Assembly (NCBI GenBank): GCA_004297165.1 | Contig: SCUJ01000005.1 | Location: 1-64,000, forward strand | Direction of reading: 5' to 3' | Length of the DNA: 64,000 bases | Origin: Gammaproteobacteria bacterium | GTDB lineage: Bacteria > Pseudomonadota > Gammaproteobacteria > Eutrophobiales > Eutrophobiaceae | In this document: piece by piece, positions 32,522-42,530 of the stretch | How the letters are laid out: every line of letters begins with the position of its first letter | How positions within the stretch are numbered: the stretch's first letter is position 1 | Program-made: the position numbers and the translations under genes | The notes under the pieces: model-generated | What the model saw: the letters and a program-made list of their open reading frames with translations, nothing else | Told to the model about the DNA's origin: nothing | The model's database searches: none

Positions 32522-33151
32522 ATGACGATCCTCGACCATCTGATCGAACAGAACCGCAAGTGGGCGGCCAGGGTCAAGCAGGCCGATCCGGAATTTTTCG
32601 CGCGGCTGGCGCAACAACAGAATCCGGAATACCTCTGGATCGGCTGCTCCGACAGCCGGGTGCCGGCAAACCAGATCGTGGACATGCTGCCCGGCCAGAT
32701 CTTCGTTCACCGCAACATCGCCAACGTGGTGGTGCACACGGATCTGAACTGCCTCTCGGTGATTCAGTACGCCGTGGAGGTCCTGCGGGTGAAACACATC
32801 ATCGTCTGCGGCCATTACGGCTGCGGCGGCGTTCAGACTGCGCTGGACAATCGCGATCACGGCCTGATCGACAACTGGCTGTGCAACATCCGCGATGTGT
32901 GCCGGTACCACCAGGCCGAGATCGACGCCCTCCGGGACGAACGGGAGAAATTGAACCGGCTGTGCGAGTTGAACGTGATCGAACAGGTGTCCAATGTCTG
33001 TCACACGACGATCGTCCAGGCAGTCTGGCGAACCGGCCGCCCATTGTCCGTGCATGGTTGGGTCTACAGCATCGAGGACGGCATCCTCAAAGACCTGGAG
33101 GTGAGCGTCTCCGGTCTGGAACAGATCCCCGGTATATTCAGGATCGGTTAA
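32522..33151 (+). CDS. can: Beta-class carbonic anhydrase
   Basis: 209 residues, a full-length beta-carbonic anhydrase. Zinc ligands are visible: Cys42 and Asp44 in IGCSDSRVPANQI, His98 and Cys101 in CGHYGCGGV. It interconverts CO2 and bicarbonate in the cytoplasm. Closest to the Can/CynT group in pattern (FVHRNIANVVVHTDLN). Probably co-transcribed with the upstream cytochrome. Confidence 0.95.
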   Translation: MTILDHLIEQNRKWAARVKQADPEFFARLAQQQNPEYLWIGCSDSRVPANQIVDMLPGQIFVHRNIANVVVHTDLNCLSVIQYAVEVLRVKHIIVCGHYGCGGVQTALDNRDHGLIDNWLCNIRDVCRYHQAEIDALRDEREKLNRLCELNVIEQVSNVCHTTIVQAVWRTGRPLSVHGWVYSIEDGILKDLEVSVSGLEQIPGIFRIG

Positions 33152-33160
33152 TCATAGTTC

Positions 33161-33208
33161 TTGACATCTCGCTGTATTGATCTATATTTGATATCACTAT
33201 GATATCAA
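33161..33208 (+). promoter_or_regulatory. Sigma70-type promoter with paired TGATATCA operator sites
   Basis: TTGACA (33161-33166), a 16-base spacer and TATATT (33183-33188) form a near-consensus promoter about 34 bases before the SPFH start. Two perfect TGATATCA palindromes (33189-33196 and 33200-33207) lie over the expected transcription start with centres 11 bases apart, one helical turn. This fits binding by a ribbon-helix-helix repressor such as the one encoded at the end of the operon. Confidence 0.75.
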
Positions 33209-33221
33209 CTGAGGTGTCGCC

Positions 33222-34091
33222 ATGATTAAGGAACGGAAGCTGCGGACGTTTAACGGTTATAGCGCAATCGTCGTCCTGTTCATCCTCCAGATACTGGGCT
33301 TTTACCTGAATAATCTGGCCATCGAGGCCCACGCCGGCTGGTGGATACCTGTCTCCTTGCTCTTCGATATCCTGGTATTTGTCTGCTGGTTTGGTCTCTT
33401 CATGGTCCATCCGAACCAGGGCCGCGTGGCTCAATTGTTCGGCACCTACATGGGCACCGAGAAAACCACCGGTCTGCGCTGGGCCAACCCCCTCTATATC
33501 AAGCAGAAATTATCCCTCAGGATCCGCAACTTTGAGAGCGAGAAACTCAAGGTCAACGACAACCGCGGCAACCCCATCGAGATCGCGGCGGTGGTGGTTT
33601 GGTATGTGACGGATACCGCCGAGGCCAGTTTCGAAGTGGACGATTACGAGAGCTTTGTCAGCATCCAGAGCGAGGCGGCGTTGCGGAACATGGCCACCAG
33701 CTACCCTTACGATCAACATGAGGACGGCGAAACCGCGCTGCGGAGTCATGCCGTGATCGTCGCCCAGAAATTGAAGGAGGAGATCCAGGAGCGTCTGGAC
33801 AAGGCCGGCGTGAGCGTCATCGAGGCGCGGATCAGCCATCTGGCGTACGCCCCCGAGATCGCCAACGCCATGCTGCAACGCCAGCAGGCCAGCGCCATCA
33901 TCGCCGCGCGCACATTGATCGTCGAAGGCGCGGTCAGCATGGTGCATATGGCGCTGGAAAAACTCAAACGCGACAACATTGTCGAGCTGGACGCCGAACG
34001 CAAGGCCGCGATGGTCAGCAATCTGCTGGTCGTCCTCTGCGGCGATCGCAACACGCAGCCGGTCATCAACACCGGTACGCTGTATTCCTGA
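33222..34091 (+). CDS. SPFH/band-7 membrane protein
   Basis: 289 residues. Two N-terminal hydrophobic segments (about 14-33 and 40-62) are followed by a band-7 domain ([31 protein letters not shown]..., [37 protein letters not shown]) and a helical tail. It should form membrane-associated oligomers like stomatin/flotillin proteins that organise membranes. First gene of a small operon with a DUF4177 protein and an Arc-like regulator. Confidence 0.92.
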
Positions 34092-34120: not shown

Positions 34121-34318
34121 ATGCGTTGGGAATATAAAACCCTGCAACACAAGGTGAAGAGCAGCTTCTTCGGCGGCAGTTTGCACATGGAAGAATTCGA
34201 CGATGTCCTCAATCAGCAGGGGCACGCCGGCTGGGAACTGGTCAGTTGCTGCAGCTCGCCAACGTGGGATCGCAGTTCAGTCTGGGTCATCGCCGTCCTG
34301 AAAAAGCCGCTGGGATAA
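34121..34318 (+). CDS. DUF4177-family small protein
   Basis: 65 residues: MRWEYKTL at the start, FDDVLNQQGHAGWELVSC in the middle and VWVIAVLKKP at the end form the DUF4177 pattern. Function unknown. Lies 29 bases after the SPFH gene and 11 before the Arc-like gene. Confidence 0.85.
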   Translation: MRWEYKTLQHKVKSSFFGGSLHMEEFDDVLNQQGHAGWELVSCCSSPTWDRSSVWVIAVLKKPLG

Positions 34319-34329
34319 GTCTGTCCGGC

Positions 34330-34524
34330 ATGGCCGAAAAAAAGTCATACCCCTTACGCATCAGCGGCGACGTTCTCGCCGCCTTGCAGCGCTGGGCCGA
34401 TGACGATCTGCGCAGCCTGAACGCGCAGATCGAATATGTCCTGCGGGATGCCCTGGTGCGCGCCGGCCGGGTGAAACTGGTGCAGAAGGCGGTGACAGAG
34501 GTGGTGGCTAAAGACGCGGATTGA
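34330..34524 (+). CDS. Arc-like ribbon-helix-helix DNA-binding protein
   Basis: 64 residues. KKSYPLRISGDVLAALQRWADDDLRSLNAQIEYVLRDALVRAGR is a standard Arc/MetJ-type RHH domain with a beta-strand of alternating polar residues, followed by a short charged tail. It probably dimerises and binds short palindromes; the paired TGATATCA sites at the operon promoter are the obvious candidate (inference). The start at 34330 is chosen because it directly precedes the domain. Confidence 0.85.
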   Translation: MAEKKSYPLRISGDVLAALQRWADDDLRSLNAQIEYVLRDALVRAGRVKLVQKAVTEVVAKDAD

Positions 34525-34540: not shown

Positions 34541-37270
34541 CTACTTCTTCGCCTTCTCGACCATCTCCGCCAGGCGTTCGCCGAGGATGTAGCAGATGTT
34601 GAAATTCAGTTTGGCGACGATGTTCGGGAAGAACTTCAGGTCCTTGTGCATGCGATCGTAGTCGAACCGCAAGGCGGAGATCTTGCTTAACGCCCGCACA
34701 TCGGCGGTGCGCTCCATGGCGCGGATGAACCCGATCTCGCCGAAGACCTGGCCTGGATGCAGGGTCGCCAGCGTGGCGGCCTTGCCGCCGTCCCGGCGGA
34801 TCACCTCGGCCTCGCCCGCGAGGATAAGATACATGCTGCGGCCGACGGTGTTCTGCTCCACCAGCAGATCGCCGGCCTCGAATTCATGCAGCTCCGAGAT
34901 CAGGATCGCCTTGCGGCGCTGATAATCGGTCATGTCCCTGAAGAGCGGACTCTGCTCCAGCACGGCGCGATCGATGGTCATGGAAAGGATCTGATAGAGC
35001 CCCACCAGCCTCACCCTGGCCATGATGATGGGCGTCACCAGGAGGTTGGCGAATATTGAAAACAGCATGGTGGCGGCAGCCAGCGCTCCGAACTGGGCGA
35101 TGACCGTGAAGTTGGAAAAGAGCAGCACGCCGAAACCGAGCGCCAGCGCGAAACTGGAGGTGATGAGCGGCGTCGCCTCTTCCTTGACGGCGGTGTTGAC
35201 CGCCCCGACGTAATCCGAGGTGCGCCGGCAGAGTTCGCTGTAGCGGGCCAGCAGGTGGATGGTGCCGTCCACCGCTATGCCGATGGCGATCACGGCCACC
35301 ATCGCGGTGCCCGGATTCAGCGGGATATCCAGCAGCCCCATGATGCCGAACATCATGGCGATAGGGATCACGGCCGGGACCAGGGCGATCGCCCCGCCCT
35401 TGAAGGATGTGAACATGGCCGACATGATCAGGAAGATCAGCGCCATGAGCGAGACCAGCGCCTTCACCTGACCCACCATCAGGCTCTCGGCGGCGTTGTT
35501 CACCATGAGATTCTCGCCGACGATGTGAGCAGTGAGTCCCGGACCGGCGGCATGATCGGCCACATCCTGCAACTCGTTGATGTAGCGATTGAGGGTGTGC
35601 GAATCGCTGATGTTGTGCCGCACCACGATATTGGCCCGGCTGTAGTCGTGACTTACGTAATTCCCGAGATCGCCGCGGTGGAAGAACAGCAGATACTGCG
35701 CCACCAGTTCCTTCGTTTCCGGCAGCCGCGCCTCTTCGTATTCGCCGCGGAATTCACGGTTCACGAAGGCCAGGTGATCGGCGATGGAAATGCTGCGATC
35801 GTAGACGGCTTGTTTCTTGAGAAAATCCTGGATCTCGACCAGTTTCGCGATGTTGCGCGGATCGAGGAAGGCATTCTCCGTGCCGGACTCCAGGCTGATG
35901 TAAAAGAGCCGCACTCCGGCGAGGTCCTCGTGGATCATCCGGGTGTCCCTAATCAGCGGCCGGTCCTCGCGAAAATAGGACAAGGGGTCGTTGGTCACAT
36001 AGAGGTTGGCGGCGTGATAGAGGAAAAAGGCGCAGAGCGCCGCAGTGACGCCGAGCGTCGAGAGGGGATAATTCTCCTGCGAATAACGAAAGACGCGCAT
36101 CACCCGCCCAGGCAGGCCGGTGACCGCATCGTCATCGACGGCGCTGATGTTCCTGTCGGAGCCGTAGACGGTGACGAGGATGGGCATGACCAGCGCCGTG
36201 ATGAGGCCGTTCGCGAGCATGGCGAAGGTCGAGGCGATGGAGAAATCCTGGATCAGACCGATGTTGCTGAAGATGTTGCTGCCGAAACCCATGGCCGTGG
36301 TGACCACCGTCAGCACCAGGGGCAGACCCATGTGCCGGGCCATGTATCTGACGCCATCGCCGCGGGATTTCGAATCCGGATCCGACAGGCCGCGATAAAA
36401 GGCGGACATCATGTGCGTGTCCTCGGTCGAGCCGATCACGATGATGAGCGAGGGCAGCATGGCGCTGAGGATGTTCACGGGGATGCCGGTCCAGCCCAGC
36501 ATGCCGAAGGTCCAGATGATGGTGATGGTCGCCGTGGCCACCGGCACCACCGCCGATAATGCGGTGCGCATGATGAACAGGATGGTCACCACCAGCACCA
36601 CCGCGGAGATGGGGCCGAGAATGATGAAGTCCTGGTAGAGGCTCGAGATCAACTCGTCGTTGACGCGCGGCGGTCCGACCTGGGTCAGGTGCTCGAATTG
36701 TCCCCGGCTCTCCTCCAGCACCGCCTCCAGGTCCTCGTAGAATGCCTGGCTGTGGTCCTGGTCATCCTCCGCCTCCTTCATGGCGACGATCATGGCCGTA
36801 ACATCGCCGTTGTCGGAGAAGTAATTGCCCAGATAGAGGGGATTCGCGAGCGCGGCTGCCCTGGCCGCGGCCGCCTCTTCCGCGGTCTGCGGCGCGGACG
36901 ACAGCACCGGGCGCGACTCGATGCGGCCGCCTTCATTCGCCACGGTGTGGAGACTGTAGAGGCCGTCCACCCTGGCGACATGCTCGAGTTGCTCGACGGC
37001 CCGATGGATCTTTTCCAGCACGGCGAGTTTCGCGGGCGTCCACAGGGCCTTGTCGCGGACGTAAACGATCGTCCGGTTATCCGTGCCGAACTCGCCCATG
37101 ATCCGCTGATAAACAATGCGCGCCGGATCCCGTTCGGGGATCAGGCTTTCGAGCCCGGTATCGACCGTAAGGCGCGGCAGGCCAAGCGCCGCCACCAGGG
37201 TGGTCAGGAACAGGAAGATGGTCACCCCTGTGCGATGGCGCAGCCCCAGCGTCAGAAACCGGAAGATCAT
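34541..37270 (-). CDS. RND/MMPL-family exporter fused to a cyclic-nucleotide-binding domain
   Basis: 909 residues. Two RND halves, each a leading transmembrane helix, a periplasmic domain and five more helices (TVDTGLESLIPERDPA...; MLPSLIIVIGSTEDTHMM in the first, GTAMVAVIAIGIAVDGTIHLLARYSE in the second), characteristic of the MMPL/HpnN-like class. After the last helix, residues about 785-885 form a cAMP/cGMP-binding-type domain (LLVEQNTVGRSMYLILAGEAEV; FGEIGFIRAMERTADVRA) with the phosphate-cassette Glu and Arg conserved. It overlaps the LolA-like gene by ATGA and ends a five-gene operon with PqiABC, suggesting lipid or hydrophobic substrate transport gated by a cyclic nucleotide. Confidence 0.92.
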   Translation of the reverse strand: MIFRFLTLGLRHRTGVTIFLFLTTLVAALGLPRLTVDTGLESLIPERDPARIVYQRIMGEFGTDNRTIVYVRDKALWTPAKLAVLEKIHRAVEQLEHVARVDGLYSLHTVANEGGRIESRPVLSSAPQTAEEAAAARAAALANPLYLGNYFSDNGDVTAMIVAMKEAEDDQDHSQAFYEDLEAVLEESRGQFEHLTQVGPPRVNDELISSLYQDFIILGPISAVVLVVTILFIMRTALSAVVPVATATITIIWTFGMLGWTGIPVNILSAMLPSLIIVIGSTEDTHMMSAFYRGLSDPDSKSRGDGVRYMARHMGLPLVLTVVTTAMGFGSNIFSNIGLIQDFSIASTFAMLANGLITALVMPILVTVYGSDRNISAVDDDAVTGLPGRVMRVFRYSQENYPLSTLGVTAALCAFFLYHAANLYVTNDPLSYFREDRPLIRDTRMIHEDLAGVRLFYISLESGTENAFLDPRNIAKLVEIQDFLKKQAVYDRSISIADHLAFVNREFRGEYEEARLPETKELVAQYLLFFHRGDLGNYVSHDYSRANIVVRHNISDSHTLNRYINELQDVADHAAGPGLTAHIVGENLMVNNAAESLMVGQVKALVSLMALIFLIMSAMFTSFKGGAIALVPAVIPIAMMFGIMGLLDIPLNPGTAMVAVIAIGIAVDGTIHLLARYSELCRRTSDYVGAVNTAVKEEATPLITSSFALALGFGVLLFSNFTVIAQFGALAAATMLFSIFANLLVTPIIMARVRLVGLYQILSMTIDRAVLEQSPLFRDMTDYQRRKAILISELHEFEAGDLLVEQNTVGRSMYLILAGEAEVIRRDGGKAATLATLHPGQVFGEIGFIRAMERTADVRALSKISALRFDYDRMHKDLKFFPNIVAKLNFNICYILGERLAEMVEKAKK

Positions 37271-38208
37271 ATCGTGCCCCCTGCAGCGGCAGGCGCGGGC
37301 TCCGCGCCGGGAGTTTCAGTCTCCGGATCCGCCGCATCCGGTCCGCCGGTTTCGGCCGGGCCTTCCGCCGCGCGCGGCAGGTCCGGGTAATTGGCGAACA
37401 ACCAGGCGGCGCTGAACATCTCCGCGGGGACATAATCCCGCGAGAATACCCGGCGATCCACCTTCAACAGGGTCTGATGGAGGGTGCGTTGATCGACCAT
37501 GATTGTCATGCCGGGGCGCCACATCTCGCCGTCGATCTGTTTGAAGTCGTGCATGCTCTGCCGTTTCAAGACATCGCCGTTGCGATCGAAGTGATCCGTG
37601 CGCGCGATGACGAAATTGTCCTTGCGCACATAGTGCCGTCGTTGAATGGTCTCCTTGCCGGGAGCGACGCCGGCCGGGAAGACATCCACGATGAAATGCG
37701 CGGCGCCGTCGAGGCCCTGGTCCGGGCGGCGCAGATACTGCTGCTCGCCGGGGATCTCGCCGGTGAGGTCCTCGATGGTGAAATCCGAACCCATCAGCGT
37801 GCCGCTGCTGCCGGTGGCGCTGCTTTCGTAAAGCTTCGGCCCCAGGGCCGGGAGATAGACCGCCTTGAACACGGACCCGTCCGGGTTGCGGTTGGCCAGC
37901 ATGGCCACGCCCTGCACCTCGCGCGGATACTGGAAGATCACCATGAAGCGGACAGTGCCATCCTCCTCCGTCCGGCTGTAGCGGTTCAGCTTGCGGGTAT
38001 CGCGGTTGCCGAGTTTGTCCTCCATGACGATGGACTGTTCCTCGTAGATATACGGATATTGTCCGTGGCGGCGTTGGACTTCATCCATGATCTGACGGCC
38101 ATCCTTGTCCGCCCACGGGTCCTCGTCGGCGGCCAGCGCCCCGGCCTGGATAGCCAGACCCACCGCGATCATGGCCGCATGGATCAGGATTGACGATTTG
38201 ATCGACAT
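37267..38208 (-). CDS. LolA-like outer-membrane lipoprotein-sorting family protein
   Basis: 313 residues with a signal peptide (HAAMIAVGLAIQAGALA). The body matches the LolA-like (PF17131-type) proteins that often accompany MMPL-type RND exporters: GRQIMDEVQRRH, SRTEEDGTVRFMVIFQYPREVQGVAML, YLPALGPKLYESSATGSSGTLMGSDFTIEDL. It probably carries a hydrophobic molecule across the periplasm. A Pro/Ala-rich tail ends the protein. The ATG at 38208 is chosen for the signal peptide; overlap ATGA with the exporter gene. Confidence 0.88.
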   Translation of the reverse strand: MSIKSSILIHAAMIAVGLAIQAGALAADEDPWADKDGRQIMDEVQRRHGQYPYIYEEQSIVMEDKLGNRDTRKLNRYSRTEEDGTVRFMVIFQYPREVQGVAMLANRNPDGSVFKAVYLPALGPKLYESSATGSSGTLMGSDFTIEDLTGEIPGEQQYLRRPDQGLDGAAHFIVDVFPAGVAPGKETIQRRHYVRKDNFVIARTDHFDRNGDVLKRQSMHDFKQIDGEMWRPGMTIMVDQRTLHQTLLKVDRRVFSRDYVPAEMFSAAWLFANYPDLPRAAEGPAETGGPDAADPETETPGAEPAPAAAGGTI

Positions 38209-38221
38209 CCGCTTCAGCCTC

Positions 38222-38842
38222 TCACTCGCCGCTCTCGTGCGCGCGGATGGATTCGGCGATCCGCCGGCAGAGTTCGCCATAAAGCGACTGCATCTCGGCG
38301 ACCAGGGCATCGTAATCCGCGGCGTCGATCTCCAGCTCGCTCATCAGGTTCGCGTTATGCATCTCGGGGACTTCGGCGCCGCTGCTCCGGCTCAATTGCC
38401 AGCGCGCGATGAGCCGCACGCGCGCATCCCGATCGCGCTCGAACTGCTCGATATGCACATGCAGGCGGTAATCCGGCGCCGACATGGAACGATTTTGCGG
38501 CGTGCCCACATCCTGGGTTCCGAGCATGGCCTCGAGGTTGCGCGCCAGCGTCCGGGTAAGATTCTTGCGCAGGTTTTCGCCCCACTGTTTGTATTCGGCG
38601 TATTTCAGCCGGTTGTTCTCGTCGCGGGTCGCGATCTGAAATTTTTCCAGGTATTGCGGGATGTGCAGGTCCTGGATCTCGATCGCGAGCGGCCGTTCAG
38701 CCGGTTGGTTCGGCGCAGCATCGGCGACCGGGTCGATGAGGTAATAGACGTGAGTATTGCCGACGCCGCCGATGCAGCCCGCAAGGAGCCCGCAGAGCAG
38801 GATCGCAAATAGTGTTGGTGTTCCAGCGCAATCGGTCCGCAT
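38222..38842 (-). CDS. pqiC: PqiC-like lipoprotein (ABC-type transport auxiliary)
   Basis: 206 residues with a lipobox (LLCGLLAGC). The mature part contains YYLIDPVAD, IEIQDLHIPQYLEKFQIATRDENNRLKYAEYKQWGENLRKNLTRTLARNL, which is the signature of the PqiC/YmbA (DUF330) family, outer-membrane lipoproteins that dock onto the PqiB tube. ATG at 38842 is one base after the pqiB stop. Confidence 0.9.
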   Translation of the reverse strand: MRTDCAGTPTLFAILLCGLLAGCIGGVGNTHVYYLIDPVADAAPNQPAERPLAIEIQDLHIPQYLEKFQIATRDENNRLKYAEYKQWGENLRKNLTRTLARNLEAMLGTQDVGTPQNRSMSAPDYRLHVHIEQFERDRDARVRLIARWQLSRSSGAEVPEMHNANLMSELEIDAADYDALVAEMQSLYGELCRRIAESIRAHESGE

Positions 38843-38843
38843 G

Positions 38844-40493
38844 TTATTCCCCTTCGCCATCCTTCCCGAAGATCACCGCTTCCGGTTTGCGCTGCAAGGT
38901 CTCGACCAGAGCGCGGATGGCGCGCGCGGTCTCCTCGAGTTCGCCGGTCAGTTGGATGGCGTTGTAATGCAGCGGCGAATCCGGTCTCAGGACCTGGTTG
39001 GTAAGCGTCAGTGTCACGTTCAATTTCTCCAGCGCGCCGTGGCCCGCGTCGATGGCCTCCTGCAGGTTGCTGTTATCCACTTTCTTCAGGATGCTGCGCA
39101 ATGACTTGAGCGAGGCCTCGAGGTCCCGCACCGAGGACCGCACGTCCTTGGAATTGATGATGGTGTTCGCGCCTTGCAGCGCACCCAGCAATTCCTCGCC
39201 GATCTTGTCGATCTCCACCTTCTCCAGCTTGGCCATGAACTCCTCGGCCGCCTTCGTGATATTGGCGAAGCTCGCGGCCTCCACCGTCGGCAGTTCCGGA
39301 TAACGCGACTCCTGTCCGGACAGGACCACCGGGGTATCCGGCAGCATGTTCAGTTCGATGAACAGTTGTCCGGTCAGCAGGCTGCCCGATTGCAGGCGGG
39401 CGCGCAGACCGCGCTCCACCAGGGAATCGAGCGTCTCGTAGGGGGAATCCTGGCCGGTCACCGCATTGCGTTCGATAATCCGCTCCGGCTCGATCTCGAT
39501 CAGCACCGGGATCCAGAAGGTGGTGTCCCGGTTGTCGAACTCCAGGCGGATATCCAGGACCGAGCCCACCTTGATCCCCTGGAATTCCACCGGGGCCCCC
39601 ACCTGCAAGCCGCGCACCGAGTCGTCGAAGAAGAGGACATAATTGATCTTCTTGGTGTAGGAAGTCTCCTTGATGATGTCATGATCCTGATACAGCGTGA
39701 ACAGCATGTTCTCGACCTCTTCGCCGTCGGGTTCCAGCGACGGCGGGGTCTCGAAGGCGATGCCGCCGAACAACAGGGATTGCAGGGAGGCAGTCTTGAC
39801 CTGGATGCCGTCCGCGTCGACCGTGACGTTCATGCCGCTGACATTCCAGAAACGGGTATTGCCCCGCAGCAACTGGCCGAACGGGTCCTTGATGAATCCG
39901 TGGATATAGACGCTGCGGTTGTCGTTGCCGAGTTCATAACCCAGGACCTCGCCCGCCTTGATCCCCTGGTAATAGATGGGCGAGCCGCTGTCCACCGAAC
40001 CGAGTTCATCGGCGATCAGCACAATCCGCTTGCCGACCTCCTCCGCGGTCACCACGGGCTTTTCCTCCAGACCCTCGAAATGCGTCTGGGAGGCCCCGCG
40101 TCCCGGTTCGATCTCGATGTAGGACCCCGAGACCAGGGTGCTTAGACCGGACACGCCGCGCAGGCTCAATTGTGGCCGCACCACCCAGAAGCGGGTGTTG
40201 CGGCGGAAGAAATTCTCGGTGCCCTGGTTGAACTGCACGGTCAGGATCACATCGGCCAGATCCTCGCTGAAATGCACCTGCTCCACGGTCCCGATATCGA
40301 CATTCTTGTATTTCACCAGGGTGCGGCCGGCCTCGATGCCCTCCGCGGTCTTGAAACTGATGGTGATCACCGGCCCCTTCTCGGAGAGGGTCTTGTAGAC
40401 CAGCCAGCCGCCGACCAGCAGGGTGATCAGCGGGATCAGCCAGACGATCGAGGGACCGGATCGGGTGCTGACATGCGCGTTGGATACTTCCAT
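38844..40493 (-). CDS. pqiB: PqiB-like MCE protein, three MCE domains
   Basis: 549 residues: an N-terminal membrane anchor (IVWLIPLITLLVGGWLVY), then three MCE domains (about 40-135, 155-220 and 285-395, with GIEAGRTLVKYKNVDIGTV, GSPIYYQGIKAGEVLGY and GAPVEFQGIKVGSVLDI) and a long helical C-terminus (about 415-530). It should hexamerise into a tunnel spanning the periplasm for lipid transport between membranes. Length and domain count match E. coli PqiB. Three bases downstream of pqiA. Confidence 0.94.
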   Translation of the reverse strand: MEVSNAHVSTRSGPSIVWLIPLITLLVGGWLVYKTLSEKGPVITISFKTAEGIEAGRTLVKYKNVDIGTVEQVHFSEDLADVILTVQFNQGTENFFRRNTRFWVVRPQLSLRGVSGLSTLVSGSYIEIEPGRGASQTHFEGLEEKPVVTAEEVGKRIVLIADELGSVDSGSPIYYQGIKAGEVLGYELGNDNRSVYIHGFIKDPFGQLLRGNTRFWNVSGMNVTVDADGIQVKTASLQSLLFGGIAFETPPSLEPDGEEVENMLFTLYQDHDIIKETSYTKKINYVLFFDDSVRGLQVGAPVEFQGIKVGSVLDIRLEFDNRDTTFWIPVLIEIEPERIIERNAVTGQDSPYETLDSLVERGLRARLQSGSLLTGQLFIELNMLPDTPVVLSGQESRYPELPTVEAASFANITKAAEEFMAKLEKVEIDKIGEELLGALQGANTIINSKDVRSSVRDLEASLKSLRSILKKVDNSNLQEAIDAGHGALEKLNVTLTLTNQVLRPDSPLHYNAIQLTGELEETARAIRALVETLQRKPEAVIFGKDGEGE

Positions 40494-40496
40494 CGA

Positions 40497-41741
40497 TCAG
40501 TCCTTGTTTGCCGACGCCGAGCCCGCCTCGTCCCACAACAGCCGCGGATCGAAACTGCTCGCGGCGAACATCGTCAACACCACGACCGCGCCGAAGAAGC
40601 TGGCGCCGATGCCGGGGCGGATGGTGGTCAGCGTGCCCATGGTGACGAGGCCGGTCAACAGGGCGACCAGGAAGACATCGACCATCGACCAGGCCCCGAT
40701 CACCTCGGTGATGCGATAAAGGACCGTGCGGTCGCGCAGCCGCCATTGTGATTTCTTCCGCAGTGAGAGTTGCAGATAAACCAGCACAATGAGCTTCAGC
40801 ACCGGCACCACGATGCTGGCGACAAACACGATCAATCCGAGTCCCCACATCCCGTCTTCAATGAGATGCTCGACGCCCTCCAGGATGGTGTTCGGCGCGC
40901 CCCGGCCGAAACGGATCACGGTCAGGACGGGATAGAGATTGGCGGGGATGAACATGATGGCGGCCGCGCACAACAAGGCCCACGTCTTCATGACACTGTT
41001 ATGCTTGCGCCGGTGCAGGGAGGCCTTGCAGCGGCGGCATTCGGCGTCGCCTTTCCTGCCGTCATGCAACAGGCCGCAGGCATGGCAGGTCAGGACCTCC
41101 GCAAGGTTTGCCGGGTCAACCGGCGTCCGCGCCGGAGACAAGGCCCAGAGCGCCCTGGGGTCGAAGCTTGCTCTTGCTGCGCTATATATAATGAGTAACC
41201 CGACCAGGGCATATAGGGATATGCCAGTGATGACATTGGCGAGATCCTGCAATTTTACGATGGCGATCAACACCGCCAGCATGAAGACGCTGACCAGGCT
41301 CCAGGGATCGACGGCATGGATGACGCGGTAAATCAATCCGGCCGCGGGCGGCAGCCGTTCCATGAACAAGGCGCCGGACAGGAGATAGATCATCCCGGCA
41401 ATAACCGCCAGCGGGAATAGAATACTGGTGAAAAAGACCAGCAGCCCGAGTTCGCCCATACCCATGCGGTAAAGCGCCAACCCGCCTTCCAACAGGTTAT
41501 TAACCACCACACGCCCGCTGAACTCCAGGGAGAGGAAGGGGTAACTGTTGGCGAGGATGAAGAGGATGAACGCGCTGGTATAAAGGGCCAGGCTGCGTTC
41601 CAGCGAATTCGGGATGCTCCGGTACAACAAGCCGCCGCAATGGCTGCACGAGGCCTTCGCGCCGGGCGGCAAGGGCTCGATCCGATACAGGTGATCACAT
41701 TCGTGGCAGGCAATCAGTTCCCCTGTGAGATTGTCAACCAT
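40497..41741 (-). CDS. pqiA: PqiA-like inner-membrane protein
   Basis: 414 residues, eight or so membrane helices in two halves. Each half is preceded by a zinc-ribbon-like module: CHECDHLYRIEPLPPGAKASCSHC and CHACGLLHDGRKGDAECRRC. This duplicated layout is typical of PqiA/YebS (paraquat-inducible protein A), the inner-membrane partner of PqiB. First gene of the minus-strand operon pqiA-pqiB-pqiC-lolA-like-RND. Confidence 0.93.
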   Translation of the reverse strand: MVDNLTGELIACHECDHLYRIEPLPPGAKASCSHCGGLLYRSIPNSLERSLALYTSAFILFILANSYPFLSLEFSGRVVVNNLLEGGLALYRMGMGELGLLVFFTSILFPLAVIAGMIYLLSGALFMERLPPAAGLIYRVIHAVDPWSLVSVFMLAVLIAIVKLQDLANVITGISLYALVGLLIIYSAARASFDPRALWALSPARTPVDPANLAEVLTCHACGLLHDGRKGDAECRRCKASLHRRKHNSVMKTWALLCAAAIMFIPANLYPVLTVIRFGRGAPNTILEGVEHLIEDGMWGLGLIVFVASIVVPVLKLIVLVYLQLSLRKKSQWRLRDRTVLYRITEVIGAWSMVDVFLVALLTGLVTMGTLTTIRPGIGASFFGAVVVLTMFAASSFDPRLLWDEAGSASANKD

Positions 41742-41865: not shown

Positions 41866-42339
41866 TTATGCCGCGTTTTTCTTCTTGACCACAAGATCGA
41901 CATCACGGTTGAGTATGTGCAACAAAGTAACAAGTTGATTCATCGACTTGCTGGTGTTTGCCGGATCGAGGAGTCGATAAAGTTGGGGCAAGGAAGTCTG
42001 TAACCTTTTTGCAATCTGGCGCCTGCTCAAGCCGCTGTTTTCGATTCCGCGTTGGGCTTCCACGGTAAGTTTATAGGTGAGGAGCTCCGCGAGATAATTT
42101 GGATCCTCGTTGTATTCGAGAACCTGCTCGATATGTACGGAGCCTTCTTTACCGGATTCCAGGACATAGGTGAAGGCCTCGTTCCCAAGCTCTCTATCCA
42201 CGAACGCTTCCTTTATTCGATCCTCAGGGCCCGGCCGTGGATCGGCTTTCGCGTATGGAAAGTTATGGGTTACGCCTGAACGCGTCACCACCTCGAATTC
42301 ATTACGCCGGTTGTTTAATGTGATGCAGCGAATCTTCAT
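41866..42339 (-). CDS. HTH protein with N-terminal DUF2442-like region, antitoxin-like
   Basis: 157 residues. The C-terminal part (LTVEAQRGIENSGLSRRQIAKRLQTSLPQLYRLLDPANTSKSMNQLVTLLHILN) is an XRE-type helix-turn-helix. The N-terminal half (MKIRCITLNNRRNEFEVVTRSGVTHNFPYAKADP) is a small beta-rich domain. The ATG at 42339 overlaps the stop of the DUF4160-like gene (ATGA), so the two are a coupled pair reminiscent of toxin-antitoxin modules. It probably controls its own promoter at the palindrome 42536-42559. Confidence 0.8.
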   Translation of the reverse strand: MKIRCITLNNRRNEFEVVTRSGVTHNFPYAKADPRPGPEDRIKEAFVDRELGNEAFTYVLESGKEGSVHIEQVLEYNEDPNYLAELLTYKLTVEAQRGIENSGLSRRQIAKRLQTSLPQLYRLLDPANTSKSMNQLVTLLHILNRDVDLVVKKKNAA

Positions 42340-42530
42340 AATTTGTCTTCGTCGTTCAATTCTCTGAGGAGTTGCAAGAGTCTTCGATTGGCCTTCCCTT
42401 CCATCGGTTGCCAATTCTCCAGGTCCCACTTCACTACAAGTCTCGATTTCTCGTATACATGGACATGGCGAGGGGAGTGGTCACCCTTCCATGTTAAAAA
42501 GATGTAGTTCCCTCTACGCGTCTTCCCCAT
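42336..42530 (-). CDS. DUF4160-like small protein, possible toxin partner
   Basis: 64 residues: IFLTWKGDHSPRHVHVYEKSRLVVKWDLENWQPMEGKANRRLLQLLREL. The HSPRHVHVY motif and the following strands resemble DUF4160 proteins, which usually sit beside DUF2442/HTH partners. No biochemical role is established that I can cite. Upstream gene of the coupled pair. Confidence 0.75.
   Translation of the reverse strand: MGKTRRGNYIFLTWKGDHSPRHVHVYEKSRLVVKWDLENWQPMEGKANRRLLQLLRELNDEDKL

Follow-up and report, generated by a model that had tools for sequence, protein, structure and literature searches.

A five-gene cluster joins PqiABC, a LolA-like carrier and an RND transporter with a C-terminal cyclic-nucleotide-binding domain

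Several described systems resemble parts of a five-gene cluster that we analyzed in a 64,000-nucleotide stretch of a gammaproteobacterial genome (GCA_004297165.1, contig SCUJ01000005.1, positions 1 to 64,000; here called the window). The cluster encodes PqiABC, a LolA-like protein and an RND transporter that ends in a cyclic-nucleotide-binding (CNB) domain. Escherichia coli PqiABC has the same three Pqi components in the same order, including a PqiB with three MCE domains and a PqiC that is an outer-membrane lipoprotein; how Pqi carries out transport, how it is regulated and in which direction it works were called enigmatic in the accessible text of a 2024 structural paper (PMC10897342). The HAE3/MmpL RND lipid transporters (MmpL3, HpnN) share with the window's RND protein two MMPL halves, a transmembrane Asp and the nearest PDB fold. 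In CNB-domain (CNBD) transporters and channels, such as the MFS-CNBD fusions, SthK and HCN, a membrane protein carries a C-terminal cytoplasmic CNB domain, and both SthK and HCN turned up as sequence matches. MFS-CNBD fusions are mentioned in a review whose accessible text does not name an RND-CNBD fusion (PMC10710835). In the AmeABCD system of Castellaniella defragrans, as described in the accessible part of the report, an HAE3-type RND protein, AmeD, is encoded with a LolA-superfamily periplasmic protein, serves hydrophobic-compound export and provides tolerance to monoterpenes (PMC6394551).

The window's cluster differs from each of these systems. Unlike E. coli PqiABC, it continues with genes for a LolA-like protein and an RND-CNB protein, and its PqiB and PqiC score under the equivalog cut-offs. 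Its RND protein departs from the HAE3/MmpL transporters in having a C-terminal CNB domain, in sitting with MCE genes and in scoring under the TIGR00921 and HpnN cut-offs. AmeD has 787 amino acids (aa) and is partnered by an outer-membrane protein and a COG4447 protein rather than by PqiABC, and the accessible text mentions no CNB domain (PMC6394551). In contrast to the known CNBD transporters and channels, the carrier here is an RND pump that would be built into an envelope-spanning system, putatively for lipid. The genes lie head to tail at 41741-34541 on the minus strand, in the order PqiA, PqiB, PqiC, LolA-like protein and RND/MMPL pump with its C-terminal CNB domain, with the following features:

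40497..41741 (-): PqiA, inner-membrane component; two PqiA domains (PF04403, 297.7 bits) and zinc-ribbon-like Cys motifs
38844..40493 (-): PqiB, MCE-domain tunnel protein; three MlaD/MCE stretches (PF02470, 127 bits) and a C-terminal helical region
38222..38860 (-): PqiC, outer-membrane lipoprotein; ABC_trans_aux (PF03886, 122.1 bits), a visible LAGC lipobox and a 17 bp overlap with pqiB
37267..38208 (-): LolA-like periplasmic carrier; PF17131 at 83.2 bits (cut-off 30) and a Sec signal peptide (ALA-A/DE by eye)
34541..37270 (-): 909-aa RND/MMPL transporter that ends in a CNB domain; its start and the lolA-like stop share 4 bp
34544..34963 (-): CNB domain with the preceding helices and C-helix, residues 770-909; placed by conservation and by AlphaFold2 (AF2)/Foldseek
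34703..34741 (-): phosphate-binding cassette, residues 844-856, G-E845-IGFIRAME-R854-T855-A856 (FGEIGFIRAMERTA); Gly844, Glu845 and Arg854 present

Pfam matches, which exceed the cut-off by a wide margin for each part, and open reading frame (ORF) positions confirmed the coordinates, strand and gene content of these five tightly packed genes, which had been described in an earlier note made from the sequence alone. The junctions, from PqiA/PqiB to LolA-like/RND, are a 3 bp gap, a 17 bp overlap, a 13 bp gap and a 4 bp overlap. We consider it about an even chance (roughly 0.5) that this unit exports a hydrophobic molecule of the envelope, probably a lipid, by proton drive and in concert with the Pqi tunnel, with cyclic AMP (cAMP) or cyclic GMP (cGMP) adjusting its activity.

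We looked for relatives of the RND protein in three sets of genomes. A search of 144 related genomes found it in 23 at E <= 1e-60, of which 17, including the window's genome, belong to the same family; among named genomes, a scan turned up 11 close relatives (64-82% identity) and a single distant relative; and a draw of 398 genomes across the phylum gave RND-CNB proteins in 20 further genomes, at 20 loci. The fusion was found at 61 places besides the window (loci and genomes are numbered L and G below).

Judged from these comparisons, the C-terminal domain of the RND protein is a real, canonical and strongly constrained CNB domain. The cNMP_binding family PF00027 matches residues 795-875 at 60.3 bits against a cut-off of 27.5. 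Within the cassette, Gly844 is found in all 42 aligned proteins and the Glu and the Arg in 40 each; all 20 phylum loci match the cassette pattern, bringing Glu and Arg to 60/62 each, and both residues are retained down to about 25% identity. The earlier note had remarked on the key Glu and Arg, and its claim of a CNB domain is upheld by this cassette conservation and by the 20 orthologues of the pqi-linked clade, in every one of which identity to the window is higher for the CNB domain than for the pump core. Their mean pairwise identity is 70% for the CNB domain and 59% for the core, with the extreme contrast in L059/L060 (69-71% versus 45%). The ratio of nonsynonymous to synonymous substitution rates (dN/dS) was also lower in the CNB domain than in the core, at 0.048 versus 0.114 with L033 and 0.072 versus 0.248 with L035, figures that are rough, with dS above 1 (the comparison with L034 was saturated). 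An AF2 model of residues 754-909, of moderate confidence (mean predicted local distance difference test score [pLDDT], 65), was matched by Foldseek to the CNB domains of CRP, PKG and PKA, and the best PDB profile matches of the domain include PKA, PKG and SthK. The window's cassette reads RTA, the same as the aligned PKG I sequence, and a Thr at this position favors cGMP. The conservation rules out a chance fusion or a degenerate CNB domain.

The RND-CNB gene is also repeatedly found with pqi, which adjoins it at 35 of the 62 loci, the window included, mostly with all five genes in the window's order. The order PqiA-PqiB-PqiC-LolA-RND-CNB is seen in 20 of the 42 RND-CNB ORFs examined, counting L036, which is without PqiA only and whose contig begins inside pqiB; of the others, L033 is cut by its contig and the rest are more distant relatives. 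The few-base overlap of LolA and RND is retained in many loci. In the phylum draw, pqi lay within the fetched stretch at 15 of the 20 loci; those without it there are L124 and L134, near contig ends, and L129, L131 and L132. At L115, L120, L128 and L133, pqi has changed orientation or place and still adjoins RND-CNB, and the survival of adjacency through such rearrangement in several other families of the phylum argues for shared function. Within the window's family, PqiA was present in 15 of 17 genomes with RND-CNB versus 3 of 36 without it (Fisher, 1.5e-8). In the two RND-CNB genomes missing PqiA (G001 and G017), contigs start inside RND and near the PqiB start; of the three PqiA genomes without RND-CNB, two hold this operon as well, truncated within lolA or RND where the contig ends, and the third has a divergent pqi. 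Together, the conserved order and overlaps, the co-occurrence within the family and the linkage that survives rearrangement bear out the single-unit part of the earlier interpretation, and the view that the five genes would act as one functional unit is well supported by these comparisons.

The survey of RND-CNB fusions and their neighbors that the earlier note had called for, now comprising 62 loci of which 35 are pqi-linked and some distant ones lie beside class III cyclases, also revealed that the system is wider and more modular than five genes. Loci that have no pqi can carry LolA and RND-CNB, in some cases together with a cyclase, or RND-CNB by itself. For example, the window's own genome has a second LolA and RND-CNB pair without pqi (L054:6793-10434, contig C13; 26% identity), followed by a GH3 glycoside hydrolase gene, and the megaplasmid pCSC3H3 of Thalassospira marina, a named, sequenced strain, encodes a LolA-like protein and an RND-CNB protein (44%), again without pqi (L067:7898-11787).

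In a tree of 45 rows, which took in the first locus set and left out the loci of the phylum draw, the pqi-linked proteins form one clade of 21 rows (support, 100/100), with L033 as a cut member. The Thalassospira marina protein adjoins this clade, and the LolA/cyclase-linked RND-CNB proteins form a separate group (100/99). The simplest reading of this tree is a LolA and RND-CNB module that came together with pqi later. The operon was also seen in metagenome-assembled genomes labelled Nitrospina/Nitrospinota (L036, L039 and L043); two of these loci, L036 and L039, branch among gammaproteobacterial rows, a placement that could reflect either transfer or misbinning.

The pump core has features expected of a proton-driven carrier. 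Asp668 and His672 are present in all 42 aligned RND-CNB proteins and Asp284 in 30, so that the conserved transmembrane Asp looked for in RND proton coupling is found here as Asp668; such a residue has a role in proton transfer in the RND family. The nearest solved folds of the pump model are MmpL3, MmpL4/5, HpnN and NPC1-type proteins, matches that are only supporting because the full-length AF2 model is poor (mean pLDDT, 58). By this low-confidence model, the core would be closest in fold to carriers of lipids or hydrophobic molecules. HpnN itself was rejected as the identity of the RND protein, which scored under both cut-offs (86.4 of 751.85 bits for TIGR03480 and 24.1 of 1100 bits for NF052374), and BstA and HAE3 as named systems were likewise rejected on scores under their respective cut-offs.

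In the mechanism that we propose, the RND pump would lift its substrate from the inner membrane using the proton gradient, as suggested by the invariant Asp668 and by what is known of the family. The LolA-like carrier would then shield the substrate in the periplasm, and a fixed route across the envelope would be formed by PqiA, PqiB and, at the outer membrane, PqiC; this presumes that RND and LolA make physical contact with Pqi. RND proteins usually have 12 transmembrane helices, and if this topology holds, the CNB domain after the last of them would hang in the cytoplasm. There, cAMP or cGMP from class III cyclases could bind the CNB domain, move the C-helix and switch the pump. The pump is probably controlled by a second messenger, and the words "gated" and "second-messenger-controlled" in the earlier note are interpretation, not observation. 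A more specific version, in which a second-messenger-gated, proton-driven lipid exporter energizes the MCE (Pqi) tunnel, with cAMP or cGMP setting the rate and RND giving energy and outward direction, is possible but tentative.

If that version is true, the RND pump would provide two things that Pqi systems are not known to possess, an energy supply and an outward direction. This naturally occurring operon, conserved in uncultured bacteria, equips Pqi with a pump, a carrier and a putative nucleotide sensor and so offers a direct handle on energy, regulation and direction. It also suggests that cyclic nucleotides act as allosteric regulators of outer-membrane lipid traffic; its CNB domain is small, separable and easily assayed. 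A literature search, with subscription literature mostly outside its scope, turned up neither an RND-CNB fusion or its link to pqi nor any description of cyclic-nucleotide allosteric control of outer-membrane lipid traffic.

Cyclases that could provide the signal are present in the window's genome, in which we found five class III cyclases over the cut-off and no class I cyclase. Three of the five have, by eye, the Lys/Thr substrate pair that is seen in adenylyl cyclases. A class III cyclase lay within 10 kb of RND-CNB, a limit set after the hits were seen, at 6 of 41 loci (in G077, G143, G164, G067, G022 and G009, the last two being one genus), with 1.3 expected (P = 0.0017), versus none of 42 loci of CNB-lacking RND proteins in 39 genomes, which hold fewer cyclases (Fisher, 0.012). 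The phylum draw added one cyclase-near locus, L119, at 3.4 kb. In two families, genes for a class III cyclase-AAA(-TPR) protein, a LolA-like protein and RND-CNB stand in tandem on one strand (L053:4103-10927 and L094:7596-14848), and this tandem is likely a cyclase-to-pump signalling operon. L095, close to L094, has the end of the same cyclase gene upstream, past an inserted opposite-strand gene, with the remainder lost at a contig end, and in L050 a cyclase-AAA-TPR gene is 87 bp upstream of RND-CNB. The L050 region (G143:C50:49000-68000) has five PF00211 cyclase matches in about 23 kb around RND-CNB, one fused to a response regulator and another to AAA and TPR.

Several observations weigh against a cyclic-nucleotide-tuned lipid exporter. 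The cyclase signal is modest because of the post hoc 10 kb limit, the pair from one genus and the cyclase-poorer controls, and no cyclase lies beside the window's own operon. The cyclases adjoining distant RND-CNB relatives have Gln at the usual Lys position, so their activity and product are uncertain. Cassette residues have been lost in three RND-CNB proteins, L086 (Glu), L087 (Arg) and L096 (both). RND-CNB was seen without pqi in the stretch at 27 of 62 loci, some of them cut by contig ends, which means that the CNB domain has no fixed tie to the tunnel. The window's RND protein scores under the HAE3 cut-off (TIGR00921, 187.8 of 351.9 bits), and an HAE3 pump can export toxic hydrophobes, as the accessible report on AmeD describes (PMC6394551).

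The alternative that survives best, which we nevertheless regard as unlikely, is that the CNB domain is a structural or oligomerization module, or binds another ligand, with no cyclic-nucleotide sensing, and that the operon is an ordinary constitutive lipid exporter. CNB folds without a cyclic-nucleotide ligand exist: PDB titles include a cAMP-independent trypanosome PKA, and a family 2B encapsulin model gave a match. Conservation of the C-helix equals that of the cassette (Asn891 and Arg899 in 42/42), and the operon itself contains no cyclase. Against this stand the retention of each of the two cassette residues, Glu and Arg, in 60 of the 62 proteins, even at about 25% identity, and the cyclase linkage of some distant relatives, which the examined CNB-lacking relatives do not have.

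It is less probable still that Pqi and LolA-RND-CNB work as separate transporters, placed under one promoter because both respond to the same envelope stress, without forming a joint machine. LolA-RND-CNB does occur without pqi, in Thalassospira marina (L067), in the window genome's paralogue (L054) and in L090, L092, L093, L095 and L096, but adjacency survives inversion and relocation elsewhere, pqi and RND-CNB are co-inherited within the family, and the window's pqi is the only one found in its genome (both PF04403 matches in G000 fall inside the window's PqiA, the sole PqiA-family gene found there).

The weakest alternative, a sensor or signal relay that, like Patched or NPC1, senses membrane lipid and passes its state to or from the cytoplasm via the CNB domain, draws on Sterol-sensing and Patched domains over their cut-offs, on response-regulator cyclases among the neighbors (L050, L051) and on a C-terminal GGDEF-like region after the CNB domain in three proteins (L084:93-3335, L088:2216-5437 and L089:7567-10815), but is improbable given that Asp668 and His672, the transmembrane residues expected in proton coupling, are invariant and that the LolA-like and Pqi partners fit transport better. 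These GGDEF-like regions reach the Pfam cut-off in L084 (46.3 bits) and L089 (25.8 bits) and were recognized only by eye in L088, and their signature is degenerate in all three.

The family assignments of the individual proteins are broad ones. The three pqi genes have the architecture of PqiABC, with two PqiA domains, three MCE domains in PqiB and the lipoprotein PqiC all encoded by one operon, and PqiA passes the cut-off of the broader PqiA/YebS subfamily (TIGR00155, 277.3 bits against 260.35). It falls under the NCBIfam equivalog cut-off (241.7 of 562), as do PqiB (PRK10807, 467.9 of 525 bits) and PqiC (NF033620, 37.3 of 200 bits). The RND protein has Pfam matches over cut-off to PF03176 (96 bits, two MMPL stretches), Sterol-sensing (32.6) and Patched (29) in addition to PF00027. 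Since NCBIfam agrees on the broad families and the HAE3, PqiB and PqiC scores are below their cut-offs, we treat the proteins as diverged members: by their profile scores, we class the pqi genes with Pqi-type systems, as a diverged one rather than as an equivalog of the E. coli genes, and the RND protein as an HAE3-related protein of the MMPL type. For the LolA-like protein, whose PDB relatives are 3bk5 (1.7e-14), 9tp6 (2.7e-10) and 4z48 (1.6e-8), we took as the start the ATG at 38208, directly followed by the signal peptide; the longest ORF begins at 38310.

A scan for promoters found 2 promoter-like sites versus 2.7 in shuffled sequences, and a scan for terminators found 8 terminator-like sites versus 5.3 (standard deviation, 2.4), none of either convincing inside the unit. 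The upstream helix-turn-helix gene (41866-42429) and the downstream ribbon-helix-helix gene (34246-34524) were excluded from the unit because neither had a match beside any other RND locus searched. Just past the end of the unit, on the opposite strand, are genes for a beta-carbonic anhydrase and for a membrane protein of the Band 7/SPFH type (32522-34091, plus strand).

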